64,000 nt of DNA from Bacteroidota bacterium (GTDB taxonomy: Bacteria > Bacteroidota > JABWAT01): contig JAKLJL010000005.1 of assembly GCA_023151185.1 (NCBI GenBank), positions 62,001 through 126,000 on the forward strand, given 5' to 3'. Below the pieces are notes generated by a model. It saw nothing but the letters and a program-made list of their open reading frames with translations. It was not told the DNA's origin and ran no database searches. Positions 811 through 44,058 of this stretch are shown piece after piece. Numbering within the stretch: the first letter of the stretch is position 1; the number at the start of each line of letters is the position of its first letter. The position numbers and the translations under genes are program-made.

Positions 811-3429
811 TTATTCAAATAAGCCTATCTGGTCCTTCTCGTCCGGGTTTTCTGCCTCCGGACCGGCAGACTCGCCGGTTTCTGCAGATGCATCAGGTTC
901 AGCAGGTTCTGCAAGATCATCGGCCGGACTCAGCATCCTGACTGAAATAACCGGAAACTGACTCAGCCGGTTCCCAAGAGCTTTCCACCCTTTCACATCC
1001 ATCAGGTCGGCCAAACCCAGTTCTTCGGTGATTTGTTCCTTTGATTTTCCTTTTTCGTAAGTCAGCGAAATCTGGGGTTCTGAAACAACCGTTACCGCAA
1101 TCAGTTTCGATTTTTTGTCATCACCGATAAAGGAAAACCGTTTATCCTGAGTCTGGGTTTCGATCTGAAACCGTTTTACGAAGTAATTTTCCTGTGCGCC
1201 TTCGTAATAAACACAGGAAATAATGGTTTCGGCATGGAATTTCCGGATAATTAAAACCTGTTCCGGCTCATACCGGTTGGTGACTTCATGCGAAGTCAGT
1301 TCATATGACCCATCTTTATAAATGACGAGAATGGAATCATTCGTATTGTAATTACCTATCCATTTTCCGCGGCCATCCAGATTCAATCTGCCAACGACGG
1401 CATCATACCAGACTTTTCTTGCGCCGAACGAGGAGGGGCCTACTGATTTCCGTATGATTTTTTTTACCGGCCAACGGGTAAGAATATTCCCCATCGACTG
1501 CCGTCCCTTGATGCTCAGGTCACCGAAATCATAGTCAAAGACCTTGATTTTCGCCCTGCACCCCTGCGATAAATTCACATTGACAATTTCGGATTCCCCG
1601 TTTGGATTCGAAGTAAAGTACAGAATTCTGGAATCCTTGGTTCCTTTTGTAACCGGATATTCCCGGTCGCGGGTAATGGCTGTGACCGCAAACCGTTTGG
1701 CAAAGGCAAACCCGGTTTCACCATCCAGATAAACAATATTGTAAATCCGGCGTTCATCGTTTTTCTTCCAGACATCAACATGAATGATGTCCTTTCCGAC
1801 AAATTTTTTGTCTTCGATCCGGGTAACCTGCATGGTTCCGTTCTTCAGAAAAACAATAATATCATCCATATCTGAGCAGTCACAGATATATTCGTCCTTT
1901 TTCAGGCCGTATCCAACGAAACCATCTTCCCGGTTAACATATAATTTCTGATTGGCAATGACCACCTGGCGGGCTGCAATGGTATCAAAAGTCCTGATTT
2001 CGGTTTTTCTTTCCCTTCCGGCACCATATTTTTTCAGGATATTCCTGTAATAGTCGATACTGTATCCGATCAGATGGGCCAGATGATGCTGAACCTGACG
2101 GATTTCATCTTCTAATGATTTTAATTCCTCGTCTGCTTTATAGGAATCGTATTTTGAAATCCGTTTAATTTTGATTTCTGTCAGTTTCAGGATATCCTCA
2201 CGGGTGATTTCCCGCCTGAATAATTTTTTGTACGGATCAAGGCCCCGGTCGATGGTTTCAAGTACCGATTCCCAGGTTGTACATTCTTCAATATCCCGGT
2301 AAATTCTTTTTTCGATAAAGATTTTTTCGAGGGATGAAAAATGCCATTTTTCCTGTAATTCCCTGAGGGTGTTTTCAAGTTCAAGTTTCAACAGATTAAC
2401 GGTGTGGGCCGTATTGAATTTCAATATTTCGGTCACACCCAGAAAGGCAGGTTTTTCTTCGGCAATCACGCAGGCATTGGGTGATTCTGAAATTTCACAT
2501 TCAGTAAAGGCAAATAAGGCATCAATGGTGACATCCGGTGAGACACCCGGGGCCAGTTCTACTACGATTTCGACATCTTTGGCGGTATTGTCGATGACCC
2601 GTTTGATTTTGATTTTACCTTTATCGTTAGCCTTCACGATCGAGTCAATCAGCGAAGCAGTCGTTTTTCCGTACGGGATTTCCCTGATAACCAGTGTTTT
2701 CTTATCCAGCTCCTCAATTTTCGCTCTGATCCTGAGCTTGCCTCCTTTTTTGCCGTCATTGTAATTGGTGACGTCAATTAATCCGCCGGTAGGAAAATCC
2801 GGGAAAATAACCGGTTCCTTTCCTTCCAGAATGTGAATACTGGCGTTGATCAGTTCGCAGAAATTATGCGGAAGGATTTTAGTGGAAAGACCGACAGCAA
2901 TTCCTTCAACACCCTGGGCCAGAACCAGCGGAAATTTTACCGGAAAGAAAATGGGTTCTTTTTTTCTGCCGTCGTAAGAAAGTTGCCAGTCGGTAATATC
3001 TGCATTGAATAAAACTTCAAGGGCAAATTTTGAAAGACGGGCTTCTATATACCGGGCTGCTGCTGCCGAATCACCGGTTCTGGGATCTCCCCAGTTTCCC
3101 TGGCAGTCAATCAGCAGGTCTTTCTGCCCCAGATTGACCAGTGCCGCCGTAATCGACTGGTCGCCGTGCGGATGAAACTGCATGGTCTGACCGATAATAT
3201 TTGCGACCTTGTGGTACCTTCCGTCATCCATTTCCTTCATGGAATGTATGATCCGCCGCTGAACTGGCTTCAGTCCGTCGTAAATCGCCGGTACGGCACG
3301 GTCCAGAATTACATACGATGCATAATCGAGCCACCAGGAATCAAACATTCCCCGGATGTGAGTCATCTCATGAAGTTTTTCACTTCCGTTTTCCGGAGAA
3401 AACGGTTCATTCTGATCAGTTGAGCTCAT
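811..3429 (-). CDS. parC: DNA topoisomerase IV subunit A
   Basis: Breakage-reunion subunit of type IIA topoisomerase, which relaxes and decatenates DNA together with ParE. It shows [16 protein letters not shown] near the N-terminus, the winged-helix motif FHPHGDQSI, and [13 protein letters not shown] containing the catalytic tyrosine (residue 127 from this start). The C-terminal half has degenerate propeller blades ([10 protein letters not shown]) but no QRRGGKG GyrA box, which supports ParC over GyrA. It ends in an acidic Ala/Glu-rich tail. The ATG at 3429 has AAAAGGA upstream and overlaps the parE stop by 14 bases; an upstream in-frame TTG at 3450 is less likely. At the position equivalent to GyrA Ser83 there is Gln. 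About 872 residues, normal for the Bacteroidota type. Confidence 0.95.
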
Positions 3430-5272
3430 GATCAACCAAATCCTTTTCAATTCTCAGATTGTCGATAATATAATTCCGCCGTTCGGGGGTGTTCGTCCCC
3501 ATATAAAACTCAAGCAGTTTGGGGATGGGAGTTTCCTTGGTCAGAATAACAGGTGCCAGGCGGATATTATCCCCGATAAAGCCTGAAAATTCATCCGGTG
3601 AAATTTCTCCGAGGCCTTTAAACCGGGTGATTTCAACCCCTTTTCCCAGTTTGTTCATGGCCAGTTGTTTTTCTGTTTCATCGTAACAGTAAATGGTTTC
3701 CTTTTTGGTTCTGACCCGGAACAGCGGGGTTTCAAGAATAAACAAATGTCCGTTTCTGACCAGATCCGGGAAAAACTGCAGGAAAAAGGTCAGGAGAATC
3801 ATCCGGATGTGTTTTCCGTCTTCATCTGCATCGGTGGCCAGAACAACCTTGTTATACCGAAGGTTTTCGATTCCGTCTTCAATGTTCAGGGCATGCTGAA
3901 GCAGATTAAGTTCTTCATTTTCATAAACATACTTCTTGGTCATCCCGTAACAGTTCATCGGTTTTCCACGGAGACTGAAGACCGCCTGGGTTTCTACGTT
4001 CCGTGATTTGGTAATCGAACCCGAAGCCGAGTCACCCTCGGTTATAAAAATGCTGGACTGGTACCGGCGGTCATCTTTACCTTCATTCAGGTGATACCGG
4101 CAGTCCCGCAGGTTTTTATTGTGCAGATTTGCCTTTTTGGCCCGTTCATTGGCCAGTTTTTTAATTCCGGCAATTTCTTTCCGTTCCCGTTCAGACTGGG
4201 TAATCCGTTCAAGCAGAGCCTGTGCCGTTGACGGGTTTTTATGAAGAAAATCATCCAGTTCTTTTTTTAGAAAATCGGCCACATAGGTTCTGACAGACGG
4301 GCCGTCGGGCCACATGGTCAGGCTGCCGAGCTTTGTTTTCGTCTGACTTTCAAAAACCGGTTCCTGAACCCGGACGCTGATGGCTGAAATGATCGAAGCC
4401 CGGATGTCTGACGGATCAAAATCCTTTTTGTAAAACTCCCGGATCACCTTAACAACGCCTTCCCGGAAGGCGGCCAGATGAGTACCGCCCTGGGTCGTAA
4501 ACTGACCGTTGACAAATGAATAATGCTCCTCGCCATACTGATTGCCATGGGTCATGGCAACTTCAATATCCTCACCCTTCAGGTGGATGATCGGGTACCG
4601 CTGGGTTTCAGGTTCAACCTTCCGGCTGAGCAGATCAAGAAGACCATTGGCAGAATAGAATTTTTGCCCGTTGAAATTAATCGTCAGACCGGCGTTCAGA
4701 AAGGCATAATTCCACAGCATTTCATCCAGAAATTCGGCGACGAAATGAAAATTTCTGAAAACAGTTCCGTCCGGAGTAAAGGTGATCAGTGTTCCGTTCC
4801 GTTCGGTTGAGTCTGTTTCCCTGTGATCCTGAAGCAAAATTCCTTTTTCGAATTCGGCAATTTTAGTCCGTCCGTCCCTGACCGACTGCACACGGAAGGC
4901 ACCCGAAAGGGCATTGACTGCCTTGGTCCCAACGCCATTCAGCCCAACTGCTTTCTTAAATGCACCCGAGTCATATTTTCCGCCGGTATTAATTTTGGAA
5001 ACGCAGTCAATTACCTTCCCAAGCGGAATACCCCGGCCATAATCCCGGATTCTGACCGATTGGTCAGTGACTTTGATATCAATGGTTTTCCCGTAACCCA
5101 TGACGTGTTCATCAATGGCATTATCCATGATTTCCTTGAACAGAACATAGATACCGTCATCCGGGGCAGAACCGTCGCCAAGTTTCCCGATATACATCCC
5201 CGGTCTCAGCCGGATGTGTTCCCGCCAATCAAGCGATTTTATACTGTCTTCTTCGTATCTGACTTCACTCAT
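3416..5272 (-). CDS. parE: DNA topoisomerase IV subunit B
   Basis: ATPase subunit of topoisomerase IV, 618 residues. Visible in order are the GHKL ATPase domain ([45 protein letters not shown]), the transducer domain, and the Toprim domain with [10 protein letters not shown] and [14 protein letters not shown], whose acidic residues bind Mg2+. The C-terminus carries [13 protein letters not shown], shared by all GyrB/ParE proteins. It is the first gene of a parE-parC-GNAT transcript, and its stop overlaps the parC start. The short length and pairing with a GyrA-box-free partner favour ParE over GyrB. Confidence 0.96.
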
Positions 5273-28955: not shown

Positions 28956-30086
28956 ATGAGCCGGCGCCACTTTTTAAAAACAGCAGCCATTCTTGCCGGA
29001 ACCGGGGCAGCCGCTGCGCTTTCCGGATGTAAAATCAGGTTTCAATCGTCAGAACAGACTGCAGCAGCTTCCGACCAAACCTTTCATTGGCGCCTTGTGA
29101 CAACCTGGGCTCCGCACTTTCCGGTCATGGGAGAAGGCCTTGATCTGTTCTCGAACTGGGTTGGGCAAATGTCGGGCGGGCGGTTAAAAATACAGGTTTA
29201 TGGAGGCGGCGAACTGGTACCGCCGCTCGAAGTGTTCGATGCCGTCAGTCAGGGAATCGCTGAAATGGGACACGGCGCATCCTATTACTGGTCAGGAAAG
29301 GTACCAGCAGCCCAGTTTTTCTGCACCGTCCCCTTTGGTCTGAACGCCCAGCAGATGAATGCCTGGCTTTATTCGGGAGGCGGATTGGCTCTGTGGGAAG
29401 AAGTCTACAAACCGCATCATCTGATTCCGTTCCCGGCCGGGAATACAGGTGTCCAGATGGGGGGATGGTTTAACCGGGAAATTAAATCGGTGGCAGATTT
29501 CGGGGGATTAAAAATGAGAATGCCCGGTCTTGGCGGAAAGGCCATTTCCAAACTCGGTGCCACAGCCCTGCTTTCTCCCGGATCAGAATTGTACACCAAC
29601 CTGGAACGAGGGGTCATCGACGCCACAGAATGGATTGGCCCTTACCATGATTATCTCATGGGATTCCATAAAATCGCAAAATACTACTACTATCCGGGAT
29701 GGCACGAACCGGGACCAACCCTGGAACTGATCGTGAATGATTCGGCGTTCGCCCAGCTTCCGCCTGACCTTCAGGAAATTGTAAGGACGGCTGCTTTCAG
29801 ACTCAATCTGTGGATGCTCTCAGAGTTTGAAGCGAAAAATGATGAATATCTTCAGAAAATCCGTCAGGAAAAACAAGTCAGAATCCTTCCGTTTCCAGAT
29901 GATGTTATGGCCCAGCTACGGGTAAAGTCTGCAGAAGTTATTCAGGAACTGACTGACCGGGATCCTGCAAGTAAAAAAGTCTTTGATTCCTGGTCGGCTT
30001 TCCGCCGTGCGATTACCGATTACAGCCACTTGTCTGAATCTGCCTACTTCAGTCTGATCTCCGGAAATTCAACCTCCATTCCCTGA
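28956..30086 (+). CDS. dctP: TRAP transporter substrate-binding protein, TakP-like, Tat-type signal with lipobox
   Basis: 376 residues. The N-terminus MSRRHFLKTAAILAGTG is a twin-arginine signal, and ALSGC is a lipobox, so the protein may be a Tat-exported lipoprotein. The mature part has VVTTWAPHFP-like first strand (LVTTWAPHFPVMGEG), GHGASYYWSGKVPAAQFF, GNTGVQMGGWFNREI and KMRMPGLGGKAISKLG with the carboxylate-binding Arg, then YYYYPGWHEPGPTLELIVN. These match TakP, which binds 2-oxo monocarboxylates. Start has GGGGGAAG. Its presumed permeases DctQM lie 11 kb upstream. A strong -35 box begins 19 bases after its stop. Confidence 0.92.
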   Translation: MSRRHFLKTAAILAGTGAAAALSGCKIRFQSSEQTAAASDQTFHWRLVTTWAPHFPVMGEGLDLFSNWVGQMSGGRLKIQVYGGGELVPPLEVFDAVSQGIAEMGHGASYYWSGKVPAAQFFCTVPFGLNAQQMNAWLYSGGGLALWEEVYKPHHLIPFPAGNTGVQMGGWFNREIKSVADFGGLKMRMPGLGGKAISKLGATALLSPGSELYTNLERGVIDATEWIGPYHDYLMGFHKIAKYYYYPGWHEPGPTLELIVNDSAFAQLPPDLQEIVRTAAFRLNLWMLSEFEAKNDEYLQKIRQEKQVRILPFPDDVMAQLRVKSAEVIQELTDRDPASKKVFDSWSAFRRAITDYSHLSESAYFSLISGNSTSIP

Positions 30087-30104: not shown

Positions 30105-30148
30105 TTGACTTTTCTGCTAGTATGGATTTATATTTATCGTACACGATA
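30105..30148 (+). promoter_or_regulatory. promoter with overlapping operator for the DoxX-GPx/ohrR operon
   Basis: TTGACT (30105-30110), 18-base spacer, TATATT (30129-30134). Directly after is the inverted repeat TATCGT-AC-ACGATA (30135-30148), perfect over 6+6 bases and placed over the expected start site. A second -10-like TATAAT is at 30147-30152. This fits repression by the OhrR encoded in the same operon. Confidence 0.6.
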
Positions 30149-30165
30149 TAATCGCAGGTGATATT

Positions 30166-31083
30166 ATGAACTACCTAACCCGCAACCCGGTTTTAAAAAC
30201 CAGTTTACGGATTCTGCTCGGCATACTGATGATAACAGCAGGAACCGGTCATCTCACCTTCCAGAGGCTGGAATTCCAGGCACAGGTTCCAGATCTGATT
30301 CCGGTCGGCAAAGATTGGGTTGTTCTTGCCTCGGGTGCAGTTGAAATTTTACTTGGACTGATGCTGGTTTTCTGGCACCGGCGGAAGGAGCAGATTGGTG
30401 TAGCACTTGCTGTCTTTTTTATTCTGATATTTCCCGGGAATATTGCGCAGTATCTGAACGGAACGCCCGCATTTGGACTGGATACTGACTTCAAACGGCT
30501 GATCAGGCTGTTTTTTCAGCCAGTTCTGATCCTTTGGGCGTTATGGTCATCGGGGGCACTCGAAGCCTATTTTTTCAGAAAACCTGTCCGGCAGAAGAAG
30601 TCCGGATTTTACTCTCTGGAAGCGGTGGACCTGAATGGAAATCCGGTTAAAATGAGCCGTTTCGAAGGCAATGTAATCGTGGTAGTGAATACCGCCAGCC
30701 GGTGCGGATTTACACCACAGTATGCCGGGCTGGAAAACCTATATCAAACCTACAGGGAAAAAGGATTGGTCATACTGGGCTTCCCCTGTAACCAGTTCGG
30801 CAGACAGGAACCCGCCAGTGACAGTGAAATCGGTGAGTTTTGCCGGATTAACTACGGTGTCAGCTTTCCCGTGTTTTCTAAAATTGAAGTCAACGGTTCT
30901 GAAACCCATCCGGTGTTCCGGTATTTAAAGGGCGAACTTCCCGGAGTCCTGGGTGGTGACATCCGGTGGAATTTTACTAAATTTGTCCTGGACCGGACAG
31001 GGAGACCGGTTAAACGGTTTGCCCCCTTTACCAAACCCGAATCCATCGAAGGCTTTCTTCAGAATCTGCTGAATCATGACTGA
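30166..31083 (+). CDS. DoxX-like membrane domain fused to glutathione peroxidase
   Basis: 305 residues. Residues about 8-130 form four membrane helices of DoxX/MauE type (LGILMITAGTGHLTF, ASGAVEILLGLMLVFW). A linker leads to a complete glutathione peroxidase domain (about 147-303). NTASRCGFTPQY has peroxidatic Cys180, GFPCNQFGRQEP has Cys208 and Gln210, and IRWNFTKFVLD has the catalytic Trp/Asn. Cys in place of selenocysteine indicates a thioredoxin-dependent type. The fusion places peroxide reduction at the membrane. The stop overlaps ohrR by 8 bases. DoxX-like proteins are usually separate genes. Confidence 0.92.
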   Translation: MNYLTRNPVLKTSLRILLGILMITAGTGHLTFQRLEFQAQVPDLIPVGKDWVVLASGAVEILLGLMLVFWHRRKEQIGVALAVFFILIFPGNIAQYLNGTPAFGLDTDFKRLIRLFFQPVLILWALWSSGALEAYFFRKPVRQKKSGFYSLEAVDLNGNPVKMSRFEGNVIVVVNTASRCGFTPQYAGLENLYQTYREKGLVILGFPCNQFGRQEPASDSEIGEFCRINYGVSFPVFSKIEVNGSETHPVFRYLKGELPGVLGGDIRWNFTKFVLDRTGRPVKRFAPFTKPESIEGFLQNLLNHD

Positions 31084-31519
31084 CGGCGAAAAATTATTAC
31101 TGTCCAACCAGGTTTGTTTCCCGGTTGTAGTGGCTTCCAGGCTGATTACCCGGGTTTATTCTCCCTTTCTTGAGGAACTTGATCTGACGTACCCTCAGTA
31201 TCTCGTGCTCCTGGCCCTGTGGGAAACCGACAGGCAGACTGTCGGGGAACTGAGCCGGAAGCTTTTTCTCGATTCGAATACCTTGACTCCGCTGCTGAAA
31301 CGGATGGAGGAGAAGGAGTTGGTTTACCGGAACCGGTCTAAGCAGGATGAGCGGAGCGTGGTTATTTCTCTTTCTGAAACCGGGATCGGGTTAAAGGAAA
31401 AAGCGGTCTGCATTCCGGATCAGATAATCCGGTCGTTAGAGGGAAGTTCGGTCAGCACAGAAGAAATTTTGAAATTCCGGGAAACACTCGGGAAGCTGAT
31501 TGCCATTCTGGATAAATAA
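31076..31519 (+). CDS. ohrR: MarR/OhrR family organic-peroxide-sensing repressor
   Basis: 147 residues. The N-terminus LLLSNQVCFPVVVASRLITR carries the reactive Cys14, whose position matches the sensing Cys of OhrR. The winged helix includes LTYPQYLVLLALWE, TVGELSRKLFLDSNTLTPLL and RMEEKELVYRNRSKQDERSV. There is no second Cys late in the protein, so it belongs to the one-Cys class. It overlaps the DoxX-GPx gene and probably autoregulates through the inverted repeat at 30135. It ends before a strong terminator. Confidence 0.93.
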   Translation: MTDGEKLLLSNQVCFPVVVASRLITRVYSPFLEELDLTYPQYLVLLALWETDRQTVGELSRKLFLDSNTLTPLLKRMEEKELVYRNRSKQDERSVVISLSETGIGLKEKAVCIPDQIIRSLEGSSVSTEEILKFRETLGKLIAILDK

Positions 31520-31520
31520 C

Positions 31521-31545
31521 AAAAGGCCGGAAATCCCGGCCTTTT
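31521..31545. terminator. bidirectional Rho-independent terminator
   Basis: AAAAGGCCGG, loop AAATC, CCGGCCTTTT. A perfect 10-base stem with A and T flanks, between convergent ohrR and the DUF2202 gene. Confidence 0.9.
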
Positions 31546-31555
31546 GACGGAAGGG

Positions 31556-32212
31556 TTACCGCCTGCGCCCGCCACGTTCAACCGGGGTTGAAAGGATGGA
31601 CTGAAAAACCTCTTCAGACAGAATCGATGGAGTATACTTTTCACCAGTAACTTCAAGTGCCTGATAAAATCCTCTGATGTGGTTTCTGGAACCCCGTGTC
31701 AGATTGTCCTTAACCCAGAGTAAATCGGCAGCAGTTGTGGTACTGAAGCGGTTATCCAGATCTGCAATATCCGTTTCCTCGATCAGAAGCCCGGCTTTCA
31801 GTGCTTCAGGTAAAGACTTGCTGCCGGCAGCCGTAAGGGCTTCATACAACGCGGCAAGATCAGGATCCTGAAAGACACCGGGTTGGGCCCCGGCAGCCGG
31901 ATCAGGCAGGTTATACCGGTTGAGCAGTACCAGAATTGCGTCGGTGTGGCGTTGTTCAGAAGATGAGATAGACGAAAAGACATCCAGCCCGTAAAGAGTA
32001 TAAAAGTAGGAATAAACATCCCTGGCCAGTTTTTCTTCTTCCCGCATAAAAGTCAGGGCAGGTTTATCCTGGTCATTCAGGGTTCCGGCTTCGGGAAGCC
32101 CCGACAGGAATTGAGCTTCACCCGGGTAATAATCAGGTTCAGTGGTCGAAGACTCGCAGGATTGAAATCCGGTGCCCAGGATCAGCAGGTGGATAAGTAC
32201 GGTCGTTTTCAT
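31556..32212 (-). CDS. DUF2202 ferritin-like lipoprotein
   Basis: 218 residues. The signal MKTTVLIHLLILGTGFQSC ends in a lipobox-like FQSC. The mature domain is four-helix ferritin-like DUF2202. It has FMREEEKLARDVYSYFY, SSSEQRHTDAILVLLNRY and LLIEETDIADLDNR, with Glu and His positioned as in carboxylate-bridged iron proteins. It ends RNHIRGFYQAL and a Gly/Arg tail. Start has AAAGGAGTTCCT. Physiological role is unknown. Confidence 0.88.
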   Translation of the reverse strand: MKTTVLIHLLILGTGFQSCESSTTEPDYYPGEAQFLSGLPEAGTLNDQDKPALTFMREEEKLARDVYSYFYTLYGLDVFSSISSSEQRHTDAILVLLNRYNLPDPAAGAQPGVFQDPDLAALYEALTAAGSKSLPEALKAGLLIEETDIADLDNRFSTTTAADLLWVKDNLTRGSRNHIRGFYQALEVTGEKYTPSILSEEVFQSILSTPVERGGRRR

Positions 32213-40409: not shown

Positions 40410-40428
40410 GTTGAAAGGGAATGTGAAT

Positions 40429-43400
40429 ATGTCATGGATTCAGGATATTTTAAATCCGGATGCCCGAACCTGGGAACAGTTTTACCGGAACCGCTGGCAA
40501 TACGATAAAATTGTCAGAAGTACACACGGGGTAAACTGTACCGGTGGATGCAGCTGGAATGTCTATGTTAAAAACGGCATTATCACCTGGGAAATGCAGG
40601 CCCTGGATTATCCGAAAATTGCACGGGACATTCCGCCCTACGAACCCCGGGGATGCCAGCGGGGAATTTCCTATTCATGGTACATCTACTCTCCGATCCG
40701 GGTGAAGTATCCGTACATCCGGGGAGTTTTATACGATATCTGGAAGCAGGCAAAGGCGGCCGCAAATGGCAATCCGCTCGAAGCCTGGAAACTGATTCAG
40801 GAATCAAAGGAGCTTCGGGAGCGATATCAGAAGGCCCGCGGAAAAGGCGGACTCCGGAGGTTTTCGTGGGATGAAGCCAATGAACTGATGGCTGCCGCAA
40901 ATCTGATCACCTCACAGAAATGGGGCACCGACCGGATAATCGGTTTTTCACCGATTCCGGCAATGTCAATGGTATCCTACGCCTCCGGAGCCCGGTTTTT
41001 ACAATTGATGGGCGGGGTTGCTCTCAGTTTCTACGATTGGTATTGTGATTTACCGCCGGCTTCACCCGAAATCTGGGGTGAACAGACAGATGTTGCCGAA
41101 AGTGCTGACTGGTTCCACTCCAAAATGATTGCTGTTGTGGGATCCAATCCGTTTATGACCAGAACCCCGGATGCCCATTTTCTGGTCGAAGCCCGCCATA
41201 ACGGTGCAAAGGCGGTCGTCTTTGCGCCCGATTTCAATATGACCTCCAAAACTGCTGATGAGTGGATTCCGATTCACCAGGGGCAGGATTCTGCCTTCTG
41301 GATGGCCGTTGGACACGTGATCCTCAGAGAAAAATTCGAAGAAACCAGGGTTGCCTACTTTGATCAGTACTGCCGTGAAAAAACGGATATGCCGTTTCTG
41401 GTAAAACTTTCAAAAATGGAAAATGGCACCTATTCAGCAGGTTCTCTCCTGCGTGCGGCAGAGGTCAAATCGACGGCAGGTGAAGAAAATGCAGACTGGA
41501 AGACCTTTGTTCTGGATAGGAAATCCGGAAAACCGGTACTTCCAGCCGGGACTTTAGGGTTCCGCTGGCAGAAGGAAAAAGGGAAGTGGAATCTGAAGCC
41601 AGAGGATGCAATTTCCGGTAAGGAAATTGAGGCCGCACTCACGGTTAAGGGGGCTGAAGATGAAGTAGTCACGGTAACGTTCAGTGATTTCTCAGAGTCA
41701 TCCAATGACAAAACGGTCTGCCGTTCGGTTCCGGTAAAGAAAGTTAAGACCCTGGCCGGTGACCAGTTGGTTACAACAGTTTTTGATCTGATGATGGCTC
41801 AGTACAGTGTTAGCCGGTCGGGAGACGATTCAACTGTTTCCTATGACGACGAAGAGGTGCCGAATACGCCGGCCTGGCAGGAAAAGTTTACCGGTGTTGA
41901 CCGTGAAATTGTCATCCGGTTTGCCAGAGAATGGGCTGCAACGGCTGAACAAACCAATGGAAAATGTTCTGTCATCATCGGGGCAGGTGCCAATCACTGG
42001 TATCACAATAACCTGATGTACCGGGCACCGATTTCTGTGCTGATGATGACCGGGTGTGTGGGGGTGAACGGAGGCGGATTGAATCATTATGTGGGGCAGG
42101 AGAAACTGGTTCCGCAAACGTCCTGGGGGCCAATAGCCTTTGGCAGTGACTGGGGTGCACCTCCCCGCCAGCAAAATGCTCCGTCCTTTCACTATATCAA
42201 TTCGGACCAATGGCGGTACGATAAGCCATTCGAAGAAATGTGCTCAGTGTCTGATCCGTCACATTCTATGGCTGGTGGACACACCATTGACAGGAACATT
42301 CAGGCAGTCCGAAATGGCTGGCTTCCCGGATACCCCCAATTTTCGAAACCCAATCATGTTCTCATTGAGGAAGCCAGAAAAGCTGGTGCCACGACAGATG
42401 AGGAAATCATCGCCTGGACGGTAACTCAGTTAAAGGAAAAAAAACTCCGGTTTGCCATCGAAGACCCGGATGCCGAAGAAAACTGGCCGCGGCTGTTTTA
42501 CATCTGGCGGGGAAATGCCCTGATGTCTTCTGCAAAGGGGCATGAGTATTTCCTGAGGCATTACCTAGGTACCCATGATAACGCAATCGCAGATGAGATC
42601 ACCGAAAAAGACGTTAAGGAAGTGACCTGGCATGATAAACTCCCGGTAGGGAAGATGGATCTGATTGTAGATCTGAACTTCCGGATGGATACCTCTGCCC
42701 TTTATTCGGATATCATTCTGCCTGCTGCAACCTTCTATGAAAAGAATGATCTGAATTCAACGGATATGCATTCATTTATCCACCCGCTTCAGGCTGCAGT
42801 TACACCCTGTTGGGAATCGAAACCCGACTGGGACATTTTCAAGGGAATTGCCGAAGCTACTTCACGAATGGCCGGAAAATACAATCTGCCGGCTTTTAAA
42901 GATTTGGTTGCAACACCGATTCAGCATGACACACCGGGTGAAATGGCTCAGCCCAAAGTTAAAAACTGGAGTGAAGGCGAGTGTGACCCCATCCCGGGAA
43001 AAACCATGCCGAACTTCAGAGTTGTAGACCGGGACCCGAAAACAATTTTCAACCGGTTTATTTCTGTCGGACCAGGAATCCGGAAAAATGGGCTTGGTAT
43101 GCATGGCATTCACATCGACGTGCAGGATGTTCATGACCGCCATTTGGCTGACTATCCAACAGAAAAATGGGGCGGAAATGAGTATATCTCTCTCCGGAAG
43201 GACAAGCTTGTCTGTGAGTTCATTCTGGCTTTTGCAGCCGAAACCAACGGCGAACTGGCTTACCGGGCGTTCGAGTATGAGTCCCATAAAACCGGAGTTG
43301 ATCTGTTGGATCTGGCGGAACCCACCCGGGGACTCAAATACACCTTCGAGGATATTGCAAACAATCCGCGGCGGGTTTTGACAACACCGTTCTGGACCGG

Positions 43401-44058
43401 TTTTACAACCCAGGGCCGAACCTATTCTGCTTACACACTGAACAACGAACGAAAGGTTCCCTGGCGAACCCTGACCGGCCGTCAGCATTTTTATCTGGAT
43501 CATGAAACCTACATCGCCTATGGTGAACACCTGCCAACTCATAAACCGGCTGTAGATGCAGTAACGTACGGAGATTTAGTCAACTCTTCTCTGAATGGCG
43601 ATCCGGTAAGTCTGAATTACATCACCCCTCACGGAAAATGGGGAATCCATTCCACTTACGGCGATACGCTGCGGATGAAGACTTTAAGCCGCGGGGTTGA
43701 ACCACTCTGGATCAATAACAAAGATGCTGAACTTATCGGTATACAGGATAATGACTGGGTCGAAGTTTACAATGACAACGGAGTCGTCTGTACCCGCGCC
43801 TGTGTAACCCACCGGCTTCCGCGTGGCATGTGCATGATTTATCACTCACCCGAAAGAACCCTCTCGGTGCCCAAATCGCCCGAAAGAGGAAACCGCCGGG
43901 CCGGTGGGCATAACAGCCTGACACGGGTTCGGCTAAAGCCCCTGTTCATGATCGGCGGTTATGCCCAGTTTACCTATGCCTTTAATTACTGGGGCCCAAC
44001 AGGTGTTAACCGGGAAACTCAGGTTCTGGTTAAAAAACTGACTGATAAAAGGTTTTAA
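40429..44058 (+). CDS. narG: respiratory nitrate reductase alpha subunit
   Basis: About 1209 residues from ATG at 40429 (a TTG at 40411 is in frame). Catalytic Mo-bisMGD subunit reducing nitrate to nitrite in the cytoplasm. The N-terminus FYRNRWQYDKIVRSTHGVNC leads to the FS0 cluster motif HGVNCTGGCSW plus a later Cys in EPRGCQRG. The Mo-ligand Asp region is YDWYCDLPPASPEIWG. Further marks are VGVNGGGLNHYVGQEK and the C-terminal molydopterin-binding IHSTYGDTLRMKTL. No functional Tat signal is evident, consistent with a cytoplasmic orientation. Confidence 0.97.
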   Translation: MSWIQDILNPDARTWEQFYRNRWQYDKIVRSTHGVNCTGGCSWNVYVKNGIITWEMQALDYPKIARDIPPYEPRGCQRGISYSWYIYSPIRVKYPYIRGVLYDIWKQAKAAANGNPLEAWKLIQESKELRERYQKARGKGGLRRFSWDEANELMAAANLITSQKWGTDRIIGFSPIPAMSMVSYASGARFLQLMGGVALSFYDWYCDLPPASPEIWGEQTDVAESADWFHSKMIAVVGSNPFMTRTPDAHFLVEARHNGAKAVVFAPDFNMTSKTADEWIPIHQGQDSAFWMAVGHVILREKFEETRVAYFDQYCREKTDMPFLVKLSKMENGTYSAGSLLRAAEVKSTAGEENADWKTFVLDRKSGKPVLPAGTLGFRWQKEKGKWNLKPEDAISGKEIEAALTVKGAEDEVVTVTFSDFSESSNDKTVCRSVPVKKVKTLAGDQLVTTVFDLMMAQYSVSRSGDDSTVSYDDEEVPNTPAWQEKFTGVDREIVIRFAREWAATAEQTNGKCSVIIGAGANHWYHNNLMYRAPISVLMMTGCVGVNGGGLNHYVGQEKLVPQTSWGPIAFGSDWGAPPRQQNAPSFHYINSDQWRYDKPFEEMCSVSDPSHSMAGGHTIDRNIQAVRNGWLPGYPQFSKPNHVLIEEARKAGATTDEEIIAWTVTQLKEKKLRFAIEDPDAEENWPRLFYIWRGNALMSSAKGHEYFLRHYLGTHDNAIADEITEKDVKEVTWHDKLPVGKMDLIVDLNFRMDTSALYSDIILPAATFYEKNDLNSTDMHSFIHPLQAAVTPCWESKPDWDIFKGIAEATSRMAGKYNLPAFKDLVATPIQHDTPGEMAQPKVKNWSEGECDPIPGKTMPNFRVVDRDPKTIFNRFISVGPGIRKNGLGMHGIHIDVQDVHDRHLADYPTEKWGGNEYISLRKDKLVCEFILAFAAETNGELAYRAFEYESHKTGVDLLDLAEPTRGLKYTFEDIANNPRRVLTTPFWTGFTTQGRTYSAYTLNNERKVPWRTLTGRQHFYLDHETYIAYGEHLPTHKPAVDAVTYGDLVNSSLNGDPVSLNYITPHGKWGIHSTYGDTLRMKTLSRGVEPLWINNKDAELIGIQDNDWVEVYNDNGVVCTRACVTHRLPRGMCMIYHSPERTLSVPKSPERGNRRAGGHNSLTRVRLKPLFMIGGYAQFTYAFNYWGPTGVNRETQVLVKKLTDKRF

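Follow-up and report, generated by a model that had tools for sequence, protein, structure and literature searches.

A DoxX/MauE-like membrane domain fused to a glutathione peroxidase in a putative OhrR-controlled operon of a Bacteroidota bacterium

The 64,000-nt stretch of Bacteroidota DNA analyzed here, referred to as the window, carries a gene whose single uninterrupted frame joins a DoxX/MauE-like four-helix membrane domain to a two-Cys glutathione peroxidase (GPx) and which is followed by a gene for an OhrR repressor (Table 1). With a probability of about 65%, the product is a cytoplasm-facing, membrane-tethered GPx of the two-Cys, thioredoxin type, which would be induced by organic peroxides as part of an autoregulated two-gene operon. 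The induction by organic peroxides can be expected from the OhrR family and from the precedent of the gpx-ospR operon of Pseudomonas aeruginosa. The locus is real, ordinary-looking but informative, and a modest variation on the gpx-OhrR operon.

Table 1. Features of the DoxX-GPx/ohrR locus (coordinates are positions in the 64,000-nt window, forward strand)
Feature	Position	Strand	Details
Promoter-like site TTGACT-18-TATATT	30105..30134	+	consensus scan, 10/12
Predicted OhrR operator, perfect inverted repeat TATCGT-AC-ACGATA = TATCGTACACGATA	30135..30148		single in genome; conserved upstream of doxX
Second, imperfect predicted operator copy AATCGCAGGTGATA	30150..30163		15 bp downstream; overlaps ribosome-binding region
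DoxX/MauE-like - glutathione peroxidase fusion	30166..31083	+	305 aa; frame, profile matches, hydropathy, AlphaFold2
DoxX/MauE-like four-helix membrane domain and basic linker	30166..30591	+	residues 1-142
Two-Cys GPx domain	30601..31080	+	about residues 146-305; C180 peroxidatic, C226 resolving, Q214, W268, N269
OhrR repressor	31076..31519	+	147 aa; C14 and C112; recognition helix DSNTLTPLLKRM
Terminator-like hairpin between convergent ohrR and DUF2202 gene	31520..31546		scan called - strand

The C-terminal part of the fusion matches the GSHPx family (PF00255, fusion residues 148-255, E 2e-43), and the catalytic tetrad as well as the resolving C226 are invariant in 16 aligned GPx domains. C226 lies 46 residues past C180, which is the spacing of C36 and C82 in yeast Hyr1/Gpx3, a protein of the GPX4 fold with the same tetrad, to which the fusion adds a four-helix membrane domain. 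Hyr1 is also the best sequence match of the domain in the PDB, and a structure search returned GPX4 and its kin. By sequence the domain belongs to the two-Cys, thioredoxin type, and thioredoxin would be the donor. Since the GPx domain supplies a resolving cysteine of its own, soluble thioredoxin should suffice, whereas glutathione is disfavoured because the glutathione synthetase family PF02955, the one route to glutathione that was searched for, was not found in the 97.7% complete genome. As the closest folds are phospholipid-type GPx proteins, GPX4 and Hyr1, repair of lipid peroxides by the fusion is plausible.

Little is understood of the DoxX proteins, widespread as they are. The MauE profile (PF07291) aligns with fusion residues 12-89 at 26.1 bits, just under its curated cut-off of 27, and the designation DoxX-like is therefore valid at the superfamily level only. 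With this restriction, the earlier note's description of DoxX-like helices fused to a full Cys-type GPx agrees with the intact frame, the PF00255 match and the four helices. Hydropathy gives four hydrophobic segments (residues 8-32, 44-72, 75-99, and 112-130), which agree with four long helices in the AlphaFold2 model, and an AlphaFold2 model with a pLDDT of 92 likewise shows a four-helix membrane bundle. In the model of the whole fusion (pLDDT 90.5, pTM 0.65) the bundle and the GPx fold are confident and their mutual placement is less certain. Across 18 DoxX proteins, both termini and loop 2 are basic, and loops 1 and 3 acidic. According to the positive-inside rule, both ends of the fusion, and hence the GPx, would face the cytoplasm.

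The start of ohrR overlaps the end of the fusion gene (31076-31083). Its product matches the structures 2pfb and 1z91 with E values of about 1e-34 and is in sequence closest to OhrR proper; the Vibrio-type OhrR model NF052638 scores 148.8 bits, which is below its own cut-off of 200. The reactive C14 is located in an N-terminal NQ(L/V/I)CF motif and is invariant in 13 OhrRs. C112 is kept in 5/6 OhrRs of doxX-gpx-ohrR loci and lies, in the alignment, some seven residues ahead of where Xanthomonas has C127. An overlapping one-Cys OhrR had been proposed earlier, of which the overlap and the OhrR identity stand, but two cysteines were counted. Beyond the hairpin, which it has in common with ohrR, a convergent gene (31556-32212, minus strand) encodes a DUF2202 protein whose signal resembles that of lipoproteins.

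The inverted repeat that had been noticed from the letters alone is exact, adjoins the promoter-like site and recurs in relatives. It reads TATCGTACACGATA and not, as in classical OhrR operators, with an AATT core. With at most two changes it stands upstream of doxX in five of the six related loci (L022, L024, L025, L026, and L031), and because other Bacteroidota keep it in front of the same genes, it is very probably the OhrR operator. The second copy at 15-bp phasing is present in L024, L025, L026, and L031 and absent from L022. At the place of the promoter-like site, directly before the repeat, the relatives have a Bacteroidota-type TAnnTTTG (read by eye). In the 3.74 Mb genome the repeat occurs exactly once and the other matches, at two mismatches, are at control level, so that the whole-genome repeat scan gave no second convincing site for a wider OhrR regulon. 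Related ATCGC..GCGAT repeats precede the gpx-ohrR pairs L072, L081, L085, L097, and L100, and no matching operator was found upstream of close DoxX genes that stand by themselves (G020, G343, and others).

That OhrR binds the repeat is further supported by a comparison of OhrR and operator types. The OhrRs of doxX-gpx and gpx-type operons have the recognition helix (S/T)NT(L/V)TP, whereas those linked to ohr have (S/T/N)GTLTP. Allowing one mismatch, ATCGY..RCGAT sites were found at 11/18 Asn-type versus 0/23 Gly-type loci (Fisher p 1e-5) and ATTGY..RCAAT sites at 0/18 versus 12/23 (Fisher p 3e-4), p values which overstate independence, since the loci are related and the Asn/Gly split follows OhrR clades. 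At one mismatch the two types never cross, and many loci show no site. Among the seven Asn-type loci without a site in the scanned stretch is L022, which was scored as a miss because an upstream MarR gene shifted the assumed operon start, although its site is present.

In the course of events that we infer, reduced OhrR would sit on TATCGTACACGATA in the resting cell, probably also on the weaker copy downstream, and block the promoter. Oxidation of C14 by an organic or lipid hydroperoxide would release OhrR from the DNA and so allow both proteins of the operon to be made. The DoxX-like bundle would anchor the fusion in the inner membrane with both ends cytoplasmic, which would hold the peroxidase close to the site of lipid hydroperoxide formation at the membrane surface. 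There C180 would reduce the peroxide, C226 would form the disulfide, and cytosolic thioredoxin, not glutathione, would reset the enzyme. The weakest step of this explanation, for which we see about even odds, is that the DoxX domain serves as a module for docking or for presenting the substrate.

The earlier note had suggested a search for the fusion and its link to OhrR, and this search in GTDB genomes was productive. The same fusion is encoded in at least two other Bacteroidota MAGs (L022 and L023, the contig of the latter ending before any ohrR), and doxX, gpx and ohrR are separate touching or overlapping genes in at least four loci (L024, L025, L026, and L031). A gpx gene directly followed by ohrR is found in these four and also in L071, L073, and others, and among the matches listed, pairs of gpx and ohrR that lack doxX are frequent in Bacteroidales and present in Pseudomonas. 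DoxX of the same type also occurs in three ohr-ohrR operons (L189 of G282, L181 of G261, and L184 of G379), two of which contain a DJ-1-like gene. The order in G282 is ohr-doxX-ohrR with the operator TATCGTGAACGATA, which is of the same type as at the fusion locus, and in G261 and G379 ohrR and doxX stand together with ohr. From the doxX-gpx-ohrR and ohr-doxX-ohrR gene orders it follows that DoxX partners organic-peroxide reductases of two kinds. In many Bacteroidota, DoxX of this type stands alone.

As it is found on its own and beside Ohr too, DoxX may serve for more than anchoring the GPx. DoxX could be an active partner, binding a lipid or a quinone and dealing with some substrate or product of the stress caused by organic peroxides, with the fusion only securing co-expression. 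The pairing with Ohr instead of GPx and the many standalone genes speak for this, as do the many invariant polar residues (H29, R34, Q40, E60, N92, Q95, D108, R111, R114, and Q118), but these may be structural, the domain shows neither a cofactor motif nor a known enzyme fold, and its nearest fold in the PDB is the chaperone NACHO/TMEM35A (TM 0.62, E 0.07, suggestive only), a scaffold. We regard such an active role as rather unlikely. Similarly tentative is a broader proposal, in which DoxX assists organic-peroxide reductases of Bacteroidota in general, serving both GPx and Ohr in OhrR operons; its invariant polar residues would draw lipid hydroperoxides out of the membrane or present them, and at this locus it would have become fused to its enzyme.

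Far less probable is that quinones, hypochlorite or other electrophiles, and not organic peroxides, are the chief signals of the operon. Some MarR-type Cys regulators do respond in this way, and one DoxX relative (L143) adjoins a pirin-like gene. Moreover, a DoxX operon of Haemophilus is induced by hypochlorite (PMC7907618). Against this reading stand the regulator, which resembles OhrR proper most closely, the peroxidase nature of the enzyme, and the presence of Ohr in the sister operons.

At least as improbable, and marginally more so, is a membrane domain that feeds electrons, e.g., from quinol, to the peroxidase. DoxX-named proteins occur in the thiosulfate:quinone oxidoreductase, and a fusion would be a natural wiring. 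The DoxX part, however, contains no cysteine, and H29 is its sole conserved histidine, which leaves neither a thiol relay nor a bis-His heme site and hence no visible basis for an electron path through the helices; furthermore, the GPx brings a resolving cysteine with it, is placed on the cytoplasmic side by net charge and is a separate protein in four relatives, so that the earlier idea of electrons drawn through the membrane domain is unsupported. An error of sequencing or assembly, which a single indel could have caused since doxX and gpx touch or nearly touch in relatives, is hardly credible and was rejected, because both parts share one frame across a linker without stop or ATG, the two other MAGs carry the fusion with different linkers, and the remaining relatives have separate touching genes.

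A full-length match to the fusion was found in this genome alone among 395 genomes of the phylum. That the three fused GPx domains form one clade is not rejected (p-AU 0.09), and in a quick tree the GPx of the fusion described here groups with unfused operon GPx proteins. This OhrR and DoxX were not found in the same-genus and same-family genomes G001-G003, and their absence from the nearest kin suggests that the locus was gained by transfer or repeatedly lost. A foreign base composition was considered and rejected, as GC and GC3 are near those of the neighbouring genes. Another candidate GPx fusion (L151, 651 aa) was discarded, as its GPx continues into an esterase-like sequence of exported type and not into DoxX; this frame (2809-4764, in G391) has a signal-peptide-like stretch in its middle and possibly reflects a lost stop codon or an error.

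The genome encodes a single OhrR, one other OsmC-family protein and, elsewhere, a second, unfused GPx, and Ohr was not found in it at 97.7% completeness. Given the one OhrR, the missing Ohr and the one other OsmC-family protein, the fusion is probably the main OhrR-controlled organic-peroxide reductase of this genome. Directly upstream of the locus lies a gene (28956-30086, plus strand) for a DctP-type solute-binding protein with a Tat signal, which has no TRAP permease gene beside it and is neighboured by LysE-type and fatty-acid-hydroxylase-type genes. The window also contains a large molybdopterin oxidoreductase gene (40411-44058, plus strand, 1215 aa), possibly of the nitrate reductase type.

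The closest known system is the gpx-ospR operon of P. aeruginosa, in which a GPx gene is followed by one for an OhrR-type repressor (OspR is an OhrR homologue) and which is induced by cumene, tert-butyl and linoleic hydroperoxide (PMC4999210). It has no DoxX, its GPx is not membrane bound, OspR carries the cysteines C24 and C134 compared with C14 and C112 here, and the OspR sites have AATT cores (PMC4999210) where the fusion locus has ATCG. The ohr-ohrR operons likewise place OhrR beside an organic-peroxide reductase under its control, but DoxX-GPx takes the place of Ohr at the fusion locus. In Mycobacterium tuberculosis, as recounted in PMC7907618 and PMC6930017, a DoxX protein brings antioxidant enzymes to the membrane within the membrane-associated DoxX-SodA-SseA oxidoreductase complex. 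The likeness is one of described role, and that complex consists of separate proteins, with a superoxide dismutase and a sulfurtransferase instead of GPx, and lacks OhrR. A search of the open-licence literature found no earlier report of a link of DoxX to GPx or OhrR, nor one of the operator variant. Apparently, the DoxX partner, the fusion and the operator variant are thus new, while the gpx-OhrR operon was already known.

Taken together, a natural fusion, a conserved gene order and a shared operator tie one branch of DoxX to the removal of organic and lipid peroxides, and the fusion offers a single protein on which the role of DoxX can be tested. In addition, one base per half-site and one residue of the recognition helix change together, which provides a ready test of how OhrR chooses its DNA. 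If DoxX should indeed be a general partner of organic-peroxide reductases, part of a large and functionally vague membrane family would obtain a defined role.
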